Source: Ignavibacteriales bacterium
GTDB taxonomy: Bacteria > Bacteroidota > Ignavibacteria > T3Sed10-11
Reading direction: 5' to 3'
Assembly (NCBI GenBank): GCA_003568415.1
Contig: PWXV01000248.1
Span: 1 to 48,791, forward strand
DNA length: 48,791 bases
Shown: positions 33,365-38,992 of the stretch, in pieces
Layout: each line of letters starts with the position of its first letter
Numbering within the stretch: position 1 is the stretch's first letter
Notes under the pieces: model-generated
The model's database searches: none
The model's input: the letters and a program-made list of their open reading frames with translations, nothing else
What the model was told of the DNA's origin: nothing
Made by a program: the position numbers and the translations under genes

Positions 33365-33799
33365 ATGTCGCAAGAGCACTTTGAACATAATGTCGATGAA
33401 CGCCGCACTATGATACAAGCGTTAGCTGAAAATTTCAAAATAAACGATATTACAATACATGCAGCGGTCGATATAGAGGGACTCCCATTGCCCAAACTTT
33501 TTCCAAATCCGGGATTTGGTGATCAGCGCCGTAAGCAACCCCATATACTCGGTGTTCATAATAAATCAGGAGAATTATATATCGGGCTTGTAAAAACAAA
33601 GGATGATGATCTGACTGATGAATCATCACTTACCGAATACGACCTATATATGGATATGACAATGAAGCAGGAAGGGATTCGCTTTTGTATAATGATGCAT
33701 GAACATCGAATTCAACATTTCAACAGCTTTATTACGCACTACCTGCATCCCGACTTCTGGCCGAATATGATGGTCATAGCCTACTCAGAAGATTCATAG
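33365..33799 (+). CDS. Hypothetical protein
   Basis: ORF divergent from sufB; no family recognised. Confidence 0.65.
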   Translation: MSQEHFEHNVDERRTMIQALAENFKINDITIHAAVDIEGLPLPKLFPNPGFGDQRRKQPHILGVHNKSGELYIGLVKTKDDDLTDESSLTEYDLYMDMTMKQEGIRFCIMMHEHRIQHFNSFITHYLHPDFWPNMMVIAYSEDS

Positions 33800-34224
33800 G
33801 ACCGGAGTCGCGAAAATTCCAGTTGCCACGCATCGGCATTCCTTACACCCATCGTGATTTGCCGCTCAGTCTTTTCGCACCGGCAATATACCGTAATATT
33901 TTTTTTATCAGTACCCGGGCGAAGTTCACAGCGTTCGGGTTCGTCTGTACCTGCCCCATGAAACTCACACTCGAATACAGGTATTTGTTTCCAGTTAAAA
34001 ACAACTAATCGCTCACCGGTCAGGATCGCCATCCCCATGAACCTTCTTCGCAGGTCATCGGGATTGCGCATGAGAAAAAATGCAAGACTGGTCTGTAAAA
34101 TTATGCCTTCGTGGCGATAGTGAAATATTTTGTTTTCAAGTTTGCTTTTAATTCGAATCAGTACTATGCTCCCGATAATAATAATAGCGGGAACAATTAA
34201 TGCAATATTAACCCAGGGACTCAT
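33781..34224 (-). CDS. Hypothetical membrane-anchored protein, possibly PH-like
   Basis: N-terminal TM helix; MAILTGERLVVFNWKQIPVFECEF; 3' end overlaps the convergent ORF by 19 bp. Confidence 0.65.
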   Translation of the reverse strand: MSPWVNIALIVPAIIIIGSIVLIRIKSKLENKIFHYRHEGIILQTSLAFFLMRNPDDLRRRFMGMAILTGERLVVFNWKQIPVFECEFHGAGTDEPERCELRPGTDKKNITVYCRCEKTERQITMGVRNADAWQLEFSRLRSYESSE

Positions 34225-34232
34225 TCAGTATA

Positions 34233-35312
34233 CTATTCTCGTTTGATTTCATATAACCGACTTTTAATCTGTTCATCATCGGGGAATTTGCGCAAAGCGT
34301 GCTTGAAGGCTTCGATTGCTTCTTCGATTTCACCGAATTTATAATAACTTTCTCCGAGCAGGTACAGCGCATCCCTGTTTTCGGGTTCGAGCAAGACTGC
34401 TTTCTGTGCCAACTGCAAACCACGCTCAATGTGTACATTCTCATTAACTAAAAGCCAGCCGGTTCTTATAAGCGTTGTAATATCCTCGCTATCTCTTTCG
34501 ACCATTCGATCAGCGATATGAACGACTCTTTTCCGCTCACGTTTAGCCGCATCATATTTATCATTCTTTTTGAACAATGTTGCAGTTCGGGCGCGTGCGT
34601 GCATACCAAGAAATTCCTCCCACAGTAAAAATATTCGCTCCAATTCACCCACCGGATCGGAATGATCTTCAACACGGAGGTCGATAAACCTGTCATTGTA
34701 CCCGGCGTAGCCACCGTTCTTGCGGTTTACAACAAGTGCTGAGGACTGACTTCCACGCCGGTCGCCACCCGCTTCTTCTCCGGCACGAAGCGCTGCGAGC
34801 AATCGAACTGCAAGATCACCATCTGTTTCACTAAATGCCCGTGCCATATCCCGAACAACCTTCTCACTTTCGAGTATATTTCCCTGCACGGTAAAATATT
34901 CGCCGGTACTATGGCCTGCCCAGTCGTTACACTCCTCACCAGTCCACGCCCAAACTCCACCGCGGGCATCCACAATTCCAAGCTGACGATAACCGGCATT
35001 TTCATCTTTCCCGATAAGCGCTTGTCCGGTTTCTGCTGCCGATTTTCCTTCTCTCAGCATTTGCAGTCCATCCGGACCATAGCGTGTATTTGCCCAGGCT
35101 TGTGTTGCAATAGCACCTACCCCTGCCTCGACCCATGGCACAACCGGTCCGACGCCTAAAAACTTCGACTGAACTGCGACGCCAAGATCGCCGTTAACCG
35201 GGTCATAGGCAACTATGGAATACGTACTGACATCTTCCCATTGGCCGGTATTCACTATGTTTATACCGAGAAGAAGCGTCGTTACAATCAAGGATATAGA
35301 TTTATTCATCAT
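34233..35312 (-). CDS. Secreted DUF1028 (Ntn-hydrolase-like) protein with C-terminal TPRs
   Basis: STYSIVAYDPVNGDLGVAVQSKFLGVGPVVPWVEAGVGAIATQAWAN; start moved to MMNKSISL, which begins a signal peptide. Confidence 0.87.
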   Translation of the reverse strand: MMNKSISLIVTTLLLGINIVNTGQWEDVSTYSIVAYDPVNGDLGVAVQSKFLGVGPVVPWVEAGVGAIATQAWANTRYGPDGLQMLREGKSAAETGQALIGKDENAGYRQLGIVDARGGVWAWTGEECNDWAGHSTGEYFTVQGNILESEKVVRDMARAFSETDGDLAVRLLAALRAGEEAGGDRRGSQSSALVVNRKNGGYAGYNDRFIDLRVEDHSDPVGELERIFLLWEEFLGMHARARTATLFKKNDKYDAAKRERKRVVHIADRMVERDSEDITTLIRTGWLLVNENVHIERGLQLAQKAVLLEPENRDALYLLGESYYKFGEIEEAIEAFKHALRKFPDDEQIKSRLYEIKRE

Positions 35313-35378
35313 TATTAATACGATATAATAATTATTGGGGCGTGAGAATAGTATGAAATTACTAAAGATACATATAAG

Positions 35379-35407
35379 TTGCAAATTAGTAACGCATTGT
35401 GTATACT
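35379..35407 (+). promoter_or_regulatory. Sigma70-like promoter for the ECF operon, predicted leaderless
   Basis: TTGCAA-N17-TATACT, ATG 7 nt after the -10 box. Confidence 0.55.
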
Positions 35408-35414
35408 TTTTATT

Positions 35415-36023
35415 ATGAATATTGCCTCATACTTACGTACCAACATCACACCACCGGTTTTTTCGCTTATGACGGTTGGTGTTGCAGTTAATCTCGGAAT
35501 GGGACAACTCGTTGCACTATTAAAGATACCGCTGTATTTGGATTCGCTCGGCACGGTCGTGGTCGCCGCCCTGTGTGGAATAGTACCCGCTATAATTACA
35601 GGAATTATATCCAACCTGCTTGCAAGCGCCGTATTTAGTCCGGTAATGATGTTTTTTATACCCGTTATGATCATCATCGCAATTCTTGCCGGAATATTCA
35701 CAAAAAAAGGATTTTTTCTCCATTGGTGGAAAGCCATCCTCGGGGGCATACTCGTTGGTATATGTGCGGCACTCGTTTCCGCACCTATATCTGCCTATTT
35801 ATTCGGCGGTATTACGCTTGCCGGCACAGATTTTCTTGTCCTCTATTTTAGAGCAACCGGTCAGGAATTAATGCAGGCAGTGCTGTATCAAGGCCTTGCT
35901 TCAGATCCTGTAGATAAGGGAATTACCTTTTTGCTGGCTTTTGCCATCCTCAGCAAAATGCCGAGAAATCTGCTTATGCGCTTCCCCGGGTATCATCATC
36001 TGAGGCCAAACAACAAAATATGA
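35415..36023 (+). CDS. ECF transporter S component (substrate unknown)
   Basis: Multi-TM; LDSLGTVVVAALCGIVPAIITGIISNLL; first gene of S-T-A-A operon. Confidence 0.8.
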   Translation: MNIASYLRTNITPPVFSLMTVGVAVNLGMGQLVALLKIPLYLDSLGTVVVAALCGIVPAIITGIISNLLASAVFSPVMMFFIPVMIIIAILAGIFTKKGFFLHWWKAILGGILVGICAALVSAPISAYLFGGITLAGTDFLVLYFRATGQELMQAVLYQGLASDPVDKGITFLLAFAILSKMPRNLLMRFPGYHHLRPNNKI

Positions 36024-36748
36024 TACGGTATCTACCCCATCCTGCACCGATGTTTTTCTTTTTATTATTTATTATCATTGCAGGATTTGTACTCACCATC
36101 GAACTCCGCTTCATATTCAGTGCAGCATTGCTTGTTTTGTTTGCTCTACACATCAACGGAAAAAAGATACTACGGACAATTGTAAGAATTGTCGTTCCGT
36201 TATGTATTGCAATAGGATTGTTTATGACGTTTATTTATCCCGAAACGGAACGATGGGTGACCATTGCCGGCATACGGCTTTCCCACGAGGGTTTAACCGC
36301 CGCCGGTGAAATGACATCACGTATCCTATTTCTCTTTACCGGCATCATTGCATTTTTTAATCTTATTACAATTCACCGGCTGGGCTCGTATTTGTATCAA
36401 AGAAATCTCCCGGTTTGGCTGGTATTCATTTTGATCAATGGTTTAAAATTTGTCGAGCGTTTCAGAAACAATCTTAACGAGATTCACTTTTACCAGCACT
36501 TGCGGGGTATGCCGCTCGATACCGTGTGGCAGCGCTGGCGGGCAACAATTAAAATCCTTATCCCGCTCCTGTATGTCATGATCGAAGAAAGCTCCGACCG
36601 CGCGGTGGCACTTGAAATGCGGGGATTCACGGCGTTGAATGAACGCACCGCACTCGATCCGGATACCCAAACGCCGGCAGACAGGATTTTCGGTTTCATG
36701 CTCATTGCCGGTACTTTTATTGTTTTGTTATTCGGTATCATTCTATGA
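36020..36748 (+). CDS. ECF transporter T component (EcfT/CbiQ family)
   Basis: Multi-TM; coupling motif SSDRAVALEMRGF and QHLRGMPLD. Confidence 0.87.
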   Translation: MIRYLPHPAPMFFFLLFIIIAGFVLTIELRFIFSAALLVLFALHINGKKILRTIVRIVVPLCIAIGLFMTFIYPETERWVTIAGIRLSHEGLTAAGEMTSRILFLFTGIIAFFNLITIHRLGSYLYQRNLPVWLVFILINGLKFVERFRNNLNEIHFYQHLRGMPLDTVWQRWRATIKILIPLLYVMIEESSDRAVALEMRGFTALNERTALDPDTQTPADRIFGFMLIAGTFIVLLFGIIL

Positions 36749-37578
36749 TCGAAATTCAAAATTTTTCTTGTTTTGATGAATCGGCAAAACCGATCCTTGA
36801 TAATGTATCGTTTACGATACACGCTGACGACCGTGTGTGTATACTCAGCGACAACCAGGAACACGCTACAATAGTATGTCACGCACTTGCCGGCACTCTG
36901 AAGCGAACCTATCCCGCGCATACAACCAACGGTGAGATAACATTTAAAGGAAATCCTGTTCACACAATTGAATCACACCACCGGAGTGAACTGATTGCCT
37001 ATGTTCCTCCAAATTCCGATTTACTCATCAGCGGCGTAAAAGAAACGGTGTTCGGTGAAATTGCATTAAGTCTTGAACTCGCCGGTGAAAAACCGTCAGC
37101 GATCCGTGATAAGGTTTCGGATATCCTTCGTAAGCTCACTATTGAAAAACTTGCCGGGCGCGATCCCGATGAACTATCAGGCGGTGAACGGCACAAGGTT
37201 GCACTTGCCTCAATGATAATACGGAAGCCGGATATTCTTATTCTCGACAATCCCACTATGTTTCTTGACATAACCGGACTGAACAATTTACTTACCATAC
37301 TGCGGCACTACGATGGAGCTATTGTCATTGCCGATCCGAATCCATATGCCTGGGCATCGTTCGCAAAACGTTTTATCGTTATAAAGCAAAATGAAATCCG
37401 GGTGGCAGAATCGCCCGAGGATTATATCCGGGCAATCAATTCCGGGGAGATTACAAGTGAATTACCTGCCTGGATAGCATTATACCGGCTTATACAACAA
37501 ACACATCGGCTGGATGAAATTCCTCATACATTGTCAGGCAAACCATATATTCGCAAAATCGCCGGGGTATTGGAATGA
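36745..37578 (+). CDS. ECF-type ABC ATPase with degenerate Walker A, Walker B Glu and H-loop; intact LSGGE
   Basis: ILSDNQEHATIVCHALAG; ELSGGERHKVALAS; ILILDNPTMFLDI; IADPNPYAWA. Confidence 0.88.
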   Translation: MIEIQNFSCFDESAKPILDNVSFTIHADDRVCILSDNQEHATIVCHALAGTLKRTYPAHTTNGEITFKGNPVHTIESHHRSELIAYVPPNSDLLISGVKETVFGEIALSLELAGEKPSAIRDKVSDILRKLTIEKLAGRDPDELSGGERHKVALASMIIRKPDILILDNPTMFLDITGLNNLLTILRHYDGAIVIADPNPYAWASFAKRFIVIKQNEIRVAESPEDYIRAINSGEITSELPAWIALYRLIQQTHRLDEIPHTLSGKPYIRKIAGVLE

Positions 37579-38384
37579 TAACGTGTGAGCATGTATCATA
37601 CCGCTATCCGAACGGGCAGGGTATACATTCAATAGACCTGACGATACCGGACCGATCGATATATTTACTCGCCGGTATGAACGGTTCAGGGAAAAGTACA
37701 TTACTGAAAGTACTCGCGGGAGGATTAAAAGATTACGCCGGAATCATAAAAATGCACGGGGAAGATATCCGGGATTTACGTGCAAAACAAAAACGACTTT
37801 TCACCGTTTCGCTTTCCCCGCAACAACCTGAAAAACAATTTTCACTTCCGACGGTAAAAGATGAGCTGCGGTTCACGGCAAATGCAATCAAACAACCTGT
37901 AGATACCGATCTCGAATCACAACTACTTGACTTGCTGCAATTGCGACCCCACCTCGAAGATTCACCTTTTGACCTGCCGCCGGTAAAACGAAAATTGCTA
38001 TCTCTGGCAATAGCTGCAGTTATCCCTTCCCCTTTCATTGCCCTTGACGAACCCACTGCGGGAATTGACCGGATGCATAAACCATTGGTCTTGCAATTTA
38101 TCAGGTTTCTTTTTATACATAAAGGAGTGATAGCTGTCAGTCACGATATCGATACATTCCTCCCTTTATCTACTCATATCGGGCTTATGAGCGAGGGGAC
38201 GATTATGGATTCGACAGACAAAAACTCTTTTTTACAAAAATGCATTGACCGTAACTACACGGCGGAACTGATGCGTCCATTCATCGTTCCCCGTTTAGCA
38301 AAACTTCTCGTAAAGGAACCGGCAGGATCGGTGGACGATCTTGCCGCCATTATTAAGAAAAAACTTGGACATAAACACGTATGA
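37575..38384 (+). CDS. ECF-type ABC ATPase with intact Walker A/B and H-loop; degenerate signature
   Basis: [51 protein letters not shown]. Confidence 0.9.
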   Translation: MITCEHVSYRYPNGQGIHSIDLTIPDRSIYLLAGMNGSGKSTLLKVLAGGLKDYAGIIKMHGEDIRDLRAKQKRLFTVSLSPQQPEKQFSLPTVKDELRFTANAIKQPVDTDLESQLLDLLQLRPHLEDSPFDLPPVKRKLLSLAIAAVIPSPFIALDEPTAGIDRMHKPLVLQFIRFLFIHKGVIAVSHDIDTFLPLSTHIGLMSEGTIMDSTDKNSFLQKCIDRNYTAELMRPFIVPRLAKLLVKEPAGSVDDLAAIIKKKLGHKHV

Positions 38385-38992
38385 TACATATAGATCCATC
38401 ACAATTAACCACACGCGAGCGATACCGATTAATGATCAGCTCGATCATCCCACGGCCTATTGCGCTGGTTACAAGCATTGGTAATAATGGTGTTATAAAT
38501 GCAGCTCCCTTTAGTTTTTTTAACGGTGTTACCTCTTCACCACCGATAATCTCAATCTCGGTCGGTTACCGGAAAGGAAATGCCAAGGATACCGCACGAA
38601 ACATCAGGGAGCGCGGTGAATTTGTGGTAAATATTGTTTCTGAAAGTATCGCCGAGAAAATGAATATTGCCTCAGCCGAATACCCTCCGGAGGTAAGTGA
38701 AATCAGCAAAGCAAATTTACAGATTATACCTTCTGAATTGGTCTCGCCTCCGCGATTAGCAGAATCTCCCGTTCATATGGAATGCAAACTGTATAAACTC
38801 ATTGAAATCGGCGAAGGACCGAACGATCTCATCCTCGGTGAGGTAATCCGCTGGCACCTTAACCCGGATGTGAAAATTGACGACCGGTACCATATCGATC
38901 CGGAATCACTGAAGGTGATCGGACGCCTGGGCGGCCCGCAGTACTGCACAACGAATAATATCTTTGAAATGGTGAGACCGAAGGTGGAATGA
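38381..38992 (+). CDS. Flavin reductase family (FMN-binding split barrel) protein
   Basis: SSIIPRPIALVTSIGNNGVINAAPFSFFNGVTSSPPIISISVG. Confidence 0.93.
   Translation: MIHIDPSQLTTRERYRLMISSIIPRPIALVTSIGNNGVINAAPFSFFNGVTSSPPIISISVGYRKGNAKDTARNIRERGEFVVNIVSESIAEKMNIASAEYPPEVSEISKANLQIIPSELVSPPRLAESPVHMECKLYKLIEIGEGPNDLILGEVIRWHLNPDVKIDDRYHIDPESLKVIGRLGGPQYCTTNNIFEMVRPKVE

Follow-up and report, generated by a model that had tools for sequence, protein, structure and literature searches.

Complementary motif loss in the two ATPases of a predicted ECF importer from Ignavibacteriales and its relatives, with one candidate hydrolytic site

The ECF operon and its neighbourhood

The window, which is the whole stretch of DNA analysed here with a length of 48,791 nucleotides, contains an operon encoding a substrate-binding membrane subunit (S), a membrane subunit of the CbiQ type (T), two ATPases (A1 and A2) and a flavin-reductase-like protein. 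The positions of the genes and motifs are given in Table 1. In the window, a 4-base overlap is found at every junction from S through the flavin-reductase-like gene, and the ATGA overlaps at S/T, T/A1 and A1/A2 suggest that the translation of these genes may be coupled. The S component matched its family in the NCBIfam profile search with an E value of 5e-33 and 114 bits, a score below the curated cut-off of 180 bits. Its open reading frame opens at a TTG at position 35379, but the homologues agree with the ATG at 35415 as the start, and S is conserved in the first-gene position of the S-T-A-A loci. With 51.7 bits against the Pfam CbiQ cut-off of 25, T was identified as the ECF membrane subunit; it contains two x-Arg-Gly motifs, HLRG and EMRG, and comparable pairs are present in T proteins across the family. 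These two motifs fit putative coupling-helix anchors for both ATPases. A1 and A2 are ABC ATPases according to Pfam ABC_tran (E values of 8e-18 and 4e-16, respectively), and since their best NCBIfam matches are TIGR04520 and TIGR04521, the operon has two ECF-type ATPases, although the equivalog cut-offs of these canonical EcfA1 and EcfA2 models (315 and 330 bits) were not reached with scores of 86 and 104 bits.

The start of the flavin-reductase-like gene (38381) overlaps the stop region of A2, and in the other members of the genus the gene follows A2 at a distance of at most about 20 bases; it is also found near the operon in locus L114. A protein with a DUF1028 domain and C-terminal TPR repeats is encoded at 34233-35384 on the reverse strand, divergent from the ECF operon, and two converging open reading frames with overlapping ends (33365-33799, forward; 33781-34224, reverse) gave no Pfam match. 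A gene resembling NHL-repeat lipoproteins occurs near the operon in L051, L052, L058, L059, L067 and L114, which represent two or more families of the class. Elsewhere in the genome, only one other T gene was found, which belongs to a CbiMQO-type cobalt/nickel module with its own ATPase on contig C82. This ATPase (G000:C82, locus L151:17-763, reverse strand) reads LSLGE instead of LSGGQ and VSQS, without His, at the H-loop.

Table 1. Features of the ECF operon in the window, with the basis of each assignment or the protein length.
Feature	Position	Strand	Basis or length
S component, substrate-binding membrane subunit, CD3073-type	35415..36023	+	NCBIfam NF045596
T component, EcfT, CbiQ-type	36020..36748	+	Pfam CbiQ, E 1e-13
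A1, degenerate EcfA, predicted pseudo-ATPase and signature donor	36745..37578	+	277 aa
A1 former Walker A, SDNQEHATI, Lys to Ala	36847..36873	+	motif comparison
A1 intact ABC signature LSGGE (context DELSGGER)	37174..37188	+	motif comparison
A1 Walker B, LILDNP, Glu to Asn	37237..37254	+	motif comparison
A1 former H-loop, IADPNP, without His	37327..37344	+	motif comparison
A2, predicted catalytic EcfA without signature	37575..38384	+	269 aa
A2 intact Walker A GMNGSGKST	37674..37700	+	motif comparison
A2 replaced signature segment FDLPPVKR (context SPFDLPPVKRK)	37968..37991	+	phmmer and motif comparison
A2 intact Walker B FIALDEP	38034..38054	+	motif comparison
A2 intact H-loop VSHD	38136..38147	+	motif comparison
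Flavin-reductase-like gene (FMN-binding split barrel)	38381..38992	+	Pfam Flavin_Reduct, E 2e-24

Motifs of the two ATPases

In an earlier note on this DNA, A1 was described as lacking the P-loop Lys, the catalytic Glu and the H-loop His while keeping LSGGE, and A2 as having intact Walker A, Walker B and H-loop motifs with DLPPVKR in place of LSGGQ; all of these features were seen again. The P-loop position of A1 reads VCILSDNQEHATIVCHALAG. A further loss, absent from the earlier note, is that of the Q-loop Gln, which is replaced by Pro (YVPPNS as opposed to YVFQNP). A pattern search of the whole A1 protein found neither [AG]x4GK[ST] nor a Walker B “DE”. The structure of A1 was modelled with AlphaFold2 using 44 sequences (pLDDT 93.4, pTM 0.90), and the model shows a complete ABC ATPase fold with CbiO and EcfA subunits as the best PDB matches. 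In this model the P-loop strand comprises residues 30-35 and the helix begins at residue 38, three residues ahead of the lost Lys position. In a model of a fused Latescibacterota protein with intact P-loops, which is of lower confidence, six residues lie between strand and helix. The short gap between strand and helix fits the predicted loss of the phosphate-binding loop in A1. A hidden, misaligned P-loop, named beforehand as a result that would speak against the proposal, was ruled out, as GK[ST] is present in none of the five A1 proteins of the genus and the segment occupies the strand-loop-helix position in the model. The model of the natural A1-A2 fusion (pLDDT 76, pTM 0.62, five sequences) was set aside as a basis for conclusions on domain packing.

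The intact motifs of A2 include GMNGSGKST, FIALDEPTAGID and VSHD. At the signature site, the phmmer alignment sets LPPVKRK of A2 against LSGGEKRR in TM_0222 from T. maritima, and a signature shifted to another part of the protein was ruled out, as the SGG strings of a few A2 proteins sit off the signature site. The replacement segment is itself conserved as LPxxxR, with P131 invariant and R139 nearly invariant among 41 aligned A2 sequences; it therefore has some function, which we counted against the explanation preferred below.

Each ATP site of an ABC dimer takes its Walker and H-loop residues from one subunit and its signature from the other (PMC7756269). With the core lost in A1, the signature lost in A2 and one site intact, the pair shows the complementary loss typical of the degenerate-site ABC class, and two complete composite ATP sites are not found in it, as site 1 is without catalytic motifs on both halves. 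Site 2 would be complete only as a combination of the A2 Walker A, Q-loop, Walker B and His with the LSGGE of A1, and site 1, combining the A1 core with the LPPVKR of A2, would be missing its catalytic elements from both sides.

Conservation within the genus

The same operon is present in four other genomes of the genus, giving five members in total, and a sixth genome (G004, 79% complete) contained no match close enough to count as the gene sought. All five A1 proteins show the replacements of Lys by Ala or Ser, Gln by Pro, Glu by Asn and His by Pro or Ser with LSGGERHK unchanged, and all five A2 proteins have an intact Walker A, Q-loop, Walker B and H-loop with DLPPV[KM]R or DLFPVRR at the signature site. 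The states of A1 and A2, whose co-occurrence the earlier note had proposed to check, are thus found together in every member. Stops or frameshifts in A1 or A2 were found in none of the five. In the closest pair of the genus, dN/dS was 0.17 for A1, 0.10 for A2 and 0.075 for T, values that apply to close pairs only, as synonymous sites are saturated in many of the remaining pairs. With 51-69% identity within the genus, A1 shows the lowest conservation in the operon. The replaced positions are mostly fixed, including DNP and IADxNP in A1, and this speaks against free drift.

Distribution of the losses across the family

A search of the whole phylum for the S-component family NF045596 found it in only 9 of 395 genomes. 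Therefore, a wider sample was obtained by scanning contigs from named genomes for the S component, which yielded 80 loci, most of them ordered S, T, A1, A2. Motifs were counted in 60 S-T-A-A pairs from many phyla, from which duplicates had been removed and in which a few near-identical species were kept. Among the readable cases, A2 retains Lys (60/60), Gln (60/60), Glu (58/58) and His (58/58), and Ser-Gly-Gly is present in none of the 60. A1 retains Ser-Gly-Gly in 58 of 59 cases, the exception being Ser-Ala-Gly, together with Lys in 54/59, Gln in 45/59, Glu in 51/60 and His in 23/60, so that the losses amount to 37/60 for His, 14/59 for Gln, 9/60 for Glu and 5/59 for Lys. The invariant columns are SGG and the D-loop LD in A1 (44 sequences aligned), and GxNGxGKxT, Q, DEP and HD in A2 (41 sequences aligned). 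The direction of loss is uniform over the 60 pairs: all losses outside the signature fall on A1 and all full losses of the signature on A2. No probability was put on these counts because related species share states and the cells are not independent; a sign test, in which they are taken as independent, was left aside for this reason. The claim of the earlier note that complementary degeneration leaves one composite site is supported, and the asymmetry is not confined to the window genus.

Several stages of loss can be distinguished. In the Firmicutes and Spirochaetes of the set, the A1 core is whole and the A2 signature is the sole loss. In Kryptoniota- and Ignavibacteria-like genomes, the His of A1 is also gone (Asn, Thr, Tyr or others), and in some Chloroflexota it is replaced by Gln. 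The A1 proteins of Myxococcota have Glu in place of Gln and Gln in place of Glu and are without His, and in one Latescibacterota genome Arg replaces the Glu. Among the forms with separate subunits, the window genus shows the deepest decay. The advanced states in distant phyla suggest that the same site may have decayed repeatedly, the independence of these decays being beyond proof by the tree, in which the long branches of Myxococcota/Latescibacterota and of the window genus attract each other. Change counts from a concatenated tree of A1 and A2 (K 1, Q 4, E 1, H 3) were discarded, as long branches were joined and the result was flagged unsafe.

In five genomes from other phyla, a single fused protein comprises A1 and A2. 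In a metagenome-assembled genome of Verrucomicrobia (L078:7286-8605), Walker A in the first domain of an A1-A2 fusion reads GPNFSGRSR, the catalytic Glu of this domain is replaced by Cys and its H-loop His is missing, and the second domain has an intact core with FELPYVIR at the signature, which looks like another candidate for deep decay of the same composite site. In two metagenome-assembled genomes of Deltaproteobacteria/Myxococcota (L071, L074), the fusion, located downstream of the S gene, is extended in frame by a C-terminal region resembling methyltransferases and reaches 770-780 aa overall.

Canonical controls and phylogenetic tree

Canonical EcfA1/EcfA2 pairs from the same Firmicutes genomes (L127, L128, L129, L134, L135, L137, L138, L142, L144 and L145) served as controls and have an LSGGQ-type signature in both subunits. 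In the phylogenetic tree, which was computed without the motif columns, 53 of the 57 signature-less A2 sequences form one clade (SH-aLRT support of 99) that is separate from the canonical EcfA1 and EcfA2 proteins, and the other four are long rows of Myxococcota/Latescibacterota. The stems of the window genus are long, with 1.78 for A1 and 3.49 for A2. The simplest account of this topology is that the A2 signature was lost once, early. The missing A2 signature thus characterises an entire ECF subgroup, older and far wider than the window genus, and the losses in A1 are later.

Proposed mechanism and alternative explanations

We consider it very probable that the S-T-A1-A2 operon encodes an ECF importer of the dedicated, group I-like kind and that its two ATPases are obliged to pair as an asymmetric heterodimer, in which one site hydrolyses ATP. 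In the proposed mechanism, A1 would be a pseudo-ATPase that provides the D-loop and the signature and to which one of the coupling helices of T is attached. A2 would bind and hydrolyse a single ATP, and this cycle would close and open the dimer and drive the toppling or expulsion of S, with one ATP hydrolysed per cycle at the site formed by the A2 core and the A1 signature. In most of the family, where A1 has an intact P-loop, ATP may still be held at site 1 as a static glue, by analogy with known degenerate-site ABC proteins, and in the window genus this site is probably empty because the P-loop itself has been lost. The comparison supports an order in which the A2 signature would have been lost first, early in the ECF subgroup, whereby the A1 core was presumably freed, and the core would then have shed His, Gln, Glu and, in some lineages, finally Lys. 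For the wider claim, namely that a phylum-spanning ECF branch runs on a single hydrolytic site and the window genus on a single bound nucleotide with a non-nucleotide-binding A1, so that toppling would require one ATP per cycle and a two-site motor would be dispensable, we see the chances as evenly balanced.

The uniform absence of the Ser-Gly-Gly triplet from A2 speaks against the explanation that LPxxxR is an alternative working signature, in which case the wider family would hydrolyse ATP at both sites and only the window genus would be one-sited. The conservation of the segment in its own right and the P-loop, Glu and His of the Firmicutes A1 proteins favour this explanation, but the frequent loss of the A1 His, accompanied in some lineages by that of Glu and Lys, is what would be expected if site 1 were already non-catalytic, and we regard the explanation as rather unlikely. 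That the operon is on its way to becoming a pseudogene, with neutral losses in A1, would agree with fast evolution, as indicated by the long stems of the genus, and with the low conservation of A1. However, random decay, which the earlier note had named as a refuting outcome, was not found: the homologues in five species are free of frameshifts and stops, dN/dS is low in the closest pair, the signature and the replacement residues are fixed, and the losses in the 60 pairs are limited to one composite site. The relaxed-decay explanation is thus largely refuted, and we give it very little credence.

Two further explanations concern the partners and the role of the ATPases. The genome contains the ATPase of the CbiMQO-type module and many other ABC ATPases with which A1 or A2 could pair, and the composite site of the operon would then be irrelevant. 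Nevertheless, A1 and A2 lie side by side and are inherited together throughout the loci, their genes overlap within the genus, fusions of the two occur in other phyla, and their complementarity is sensible only for A1 with A2, which makes other partners highly improbable. S components without an ECF motor are known to work in other families, so that S might function alone and A1 and A2 might have a structural or regulatory role apart from transport. This can hardly be the case given the full and invariant catalytic core of A2, the presence in A1 of the one element that completes this core, and the two anchors in T.

Comparison with known systems

Returning to the proposed importer with one hydrolytic site, the systems nearest to it include the group II EcfA1/EcfA2-T modules of L. 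delbrueckii, T. maritima and L. brevis, which also have two ECF-type ATPases, a CbiQ-type T with two x-Arg-x anchors, and S. In contrast to the window pair with one site dead on both halves, however, the characterised ATPases of these modules are both canonical and both catalytic Glu residues are needed (PMC10368641). In the L. delbrueckii module, ATPase activity and transport were both abolished when Glu was exchanged for Gln in just one of the two ATPases, whichever it was (PMC10368641). One-site operation is thus without precedent in that module, which weighs against the explanation preferred here. By analogy, one-site ECF operation would depart from known ECF behaviour and follow a known ABC solution.

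The parallel with degenerate-site exporters drawn in the earlier note holds for TAP and TM287/288, which, like BmrCD and others, are heterodimers with one degenerate site, but these are weaker analogues than yeast Pdr5, which shows the same four losses in its dead site; the degeneration of the former is generally milder, with ATP still bound at the dead site. The fungal PDR exporters Pdr5 and Cdr1 show the four-motif pattern, with the Walker A Lys, the Glu (to Asn) and the His lost in one domain and the signature (LNVEQ) in the other (PMC8421411, PMC7756269). The dead site of Pdr5 (Lys to Cys, Glu to Asn, His to Tyr, signature LNVEQ) still holds ATP, and restoring all four canonical motifs to it abolishes activity. 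That Pdr5 is functional with these losses supports the explanation preferred here. Unlike the window pair, these are eukaryotic full-length exporters with ATP at the dead site, and the homology is limited to the ABC fold; the fused ABCG-type membrane and ATPase domains of such exporters are not found in the operon, which has separate ATPases, a CbiQ-type T and a separate S. One degenerate site with deviations in the Walker A Lys and the signature is also predicted for the sugar and nucleoside importers RbsA and NupO (PMC11466899), which differ in that they are ordinary ABC importers (type II), outside the ECF type, and have their ATPase domains fused. Within the CD3073-family systems (NF045596), the S of the operon is a relative, although below the curated cut-off, and more distant Firmicutes relatives also have a signature-less A2.

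In agreement with the earlier note, which knew of no characterised ECF importer of this type, none was found in the literature searched, nor any direct work on a degenerate ECF pair or on CD3073; as few subscription papers were covered, this absence is weak evidence. The degenerate-site principle itself is known, and what is new is its predicted presence in an ECF motor, where it extends over the whole family and, in one genus, has gone as far as complete loss. How much ATP is spent per ECF transport step, and whether the two sites alternate, is an unsettled question, and further work on sequential ATP binding and hydrolysis in the ECF motor has been called for (PMC10368641). A natural ECF family with an early loss of one site and a graded decay down to a genus without the P-loop would be a ready-made series for the study of one-site function, and this branch could reveal whether importers need one or two ATP per cycle. 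Current annotation masks this large subgroup, as general ECF ATPase models match although half of the proteins are without the ABC signature.

Possible substrates

In Firmicutes, Chloroflexota and a single Actinobacterium, a PfkB-type kinase was found within a few kb of the operon at 16 loci and a BtpA-family gene at 9, and a purine nucleoside phosphorylase is encoded near the operon at one locus. These neighbours are hints at nucleosides or pentosides as the substrate in the loci of these taxa. The window genus is without such neighbours and has the flavin-reductase-like gene instead. Two Firmicutes loci (L131, L132) contain paralogous A-A sets in which A2 is also signature-less, L132 also with a T gene and with a ribokinase-like gene following, and it seems likely that there is an ECF subgroup linked to nucleosides or pentoses.
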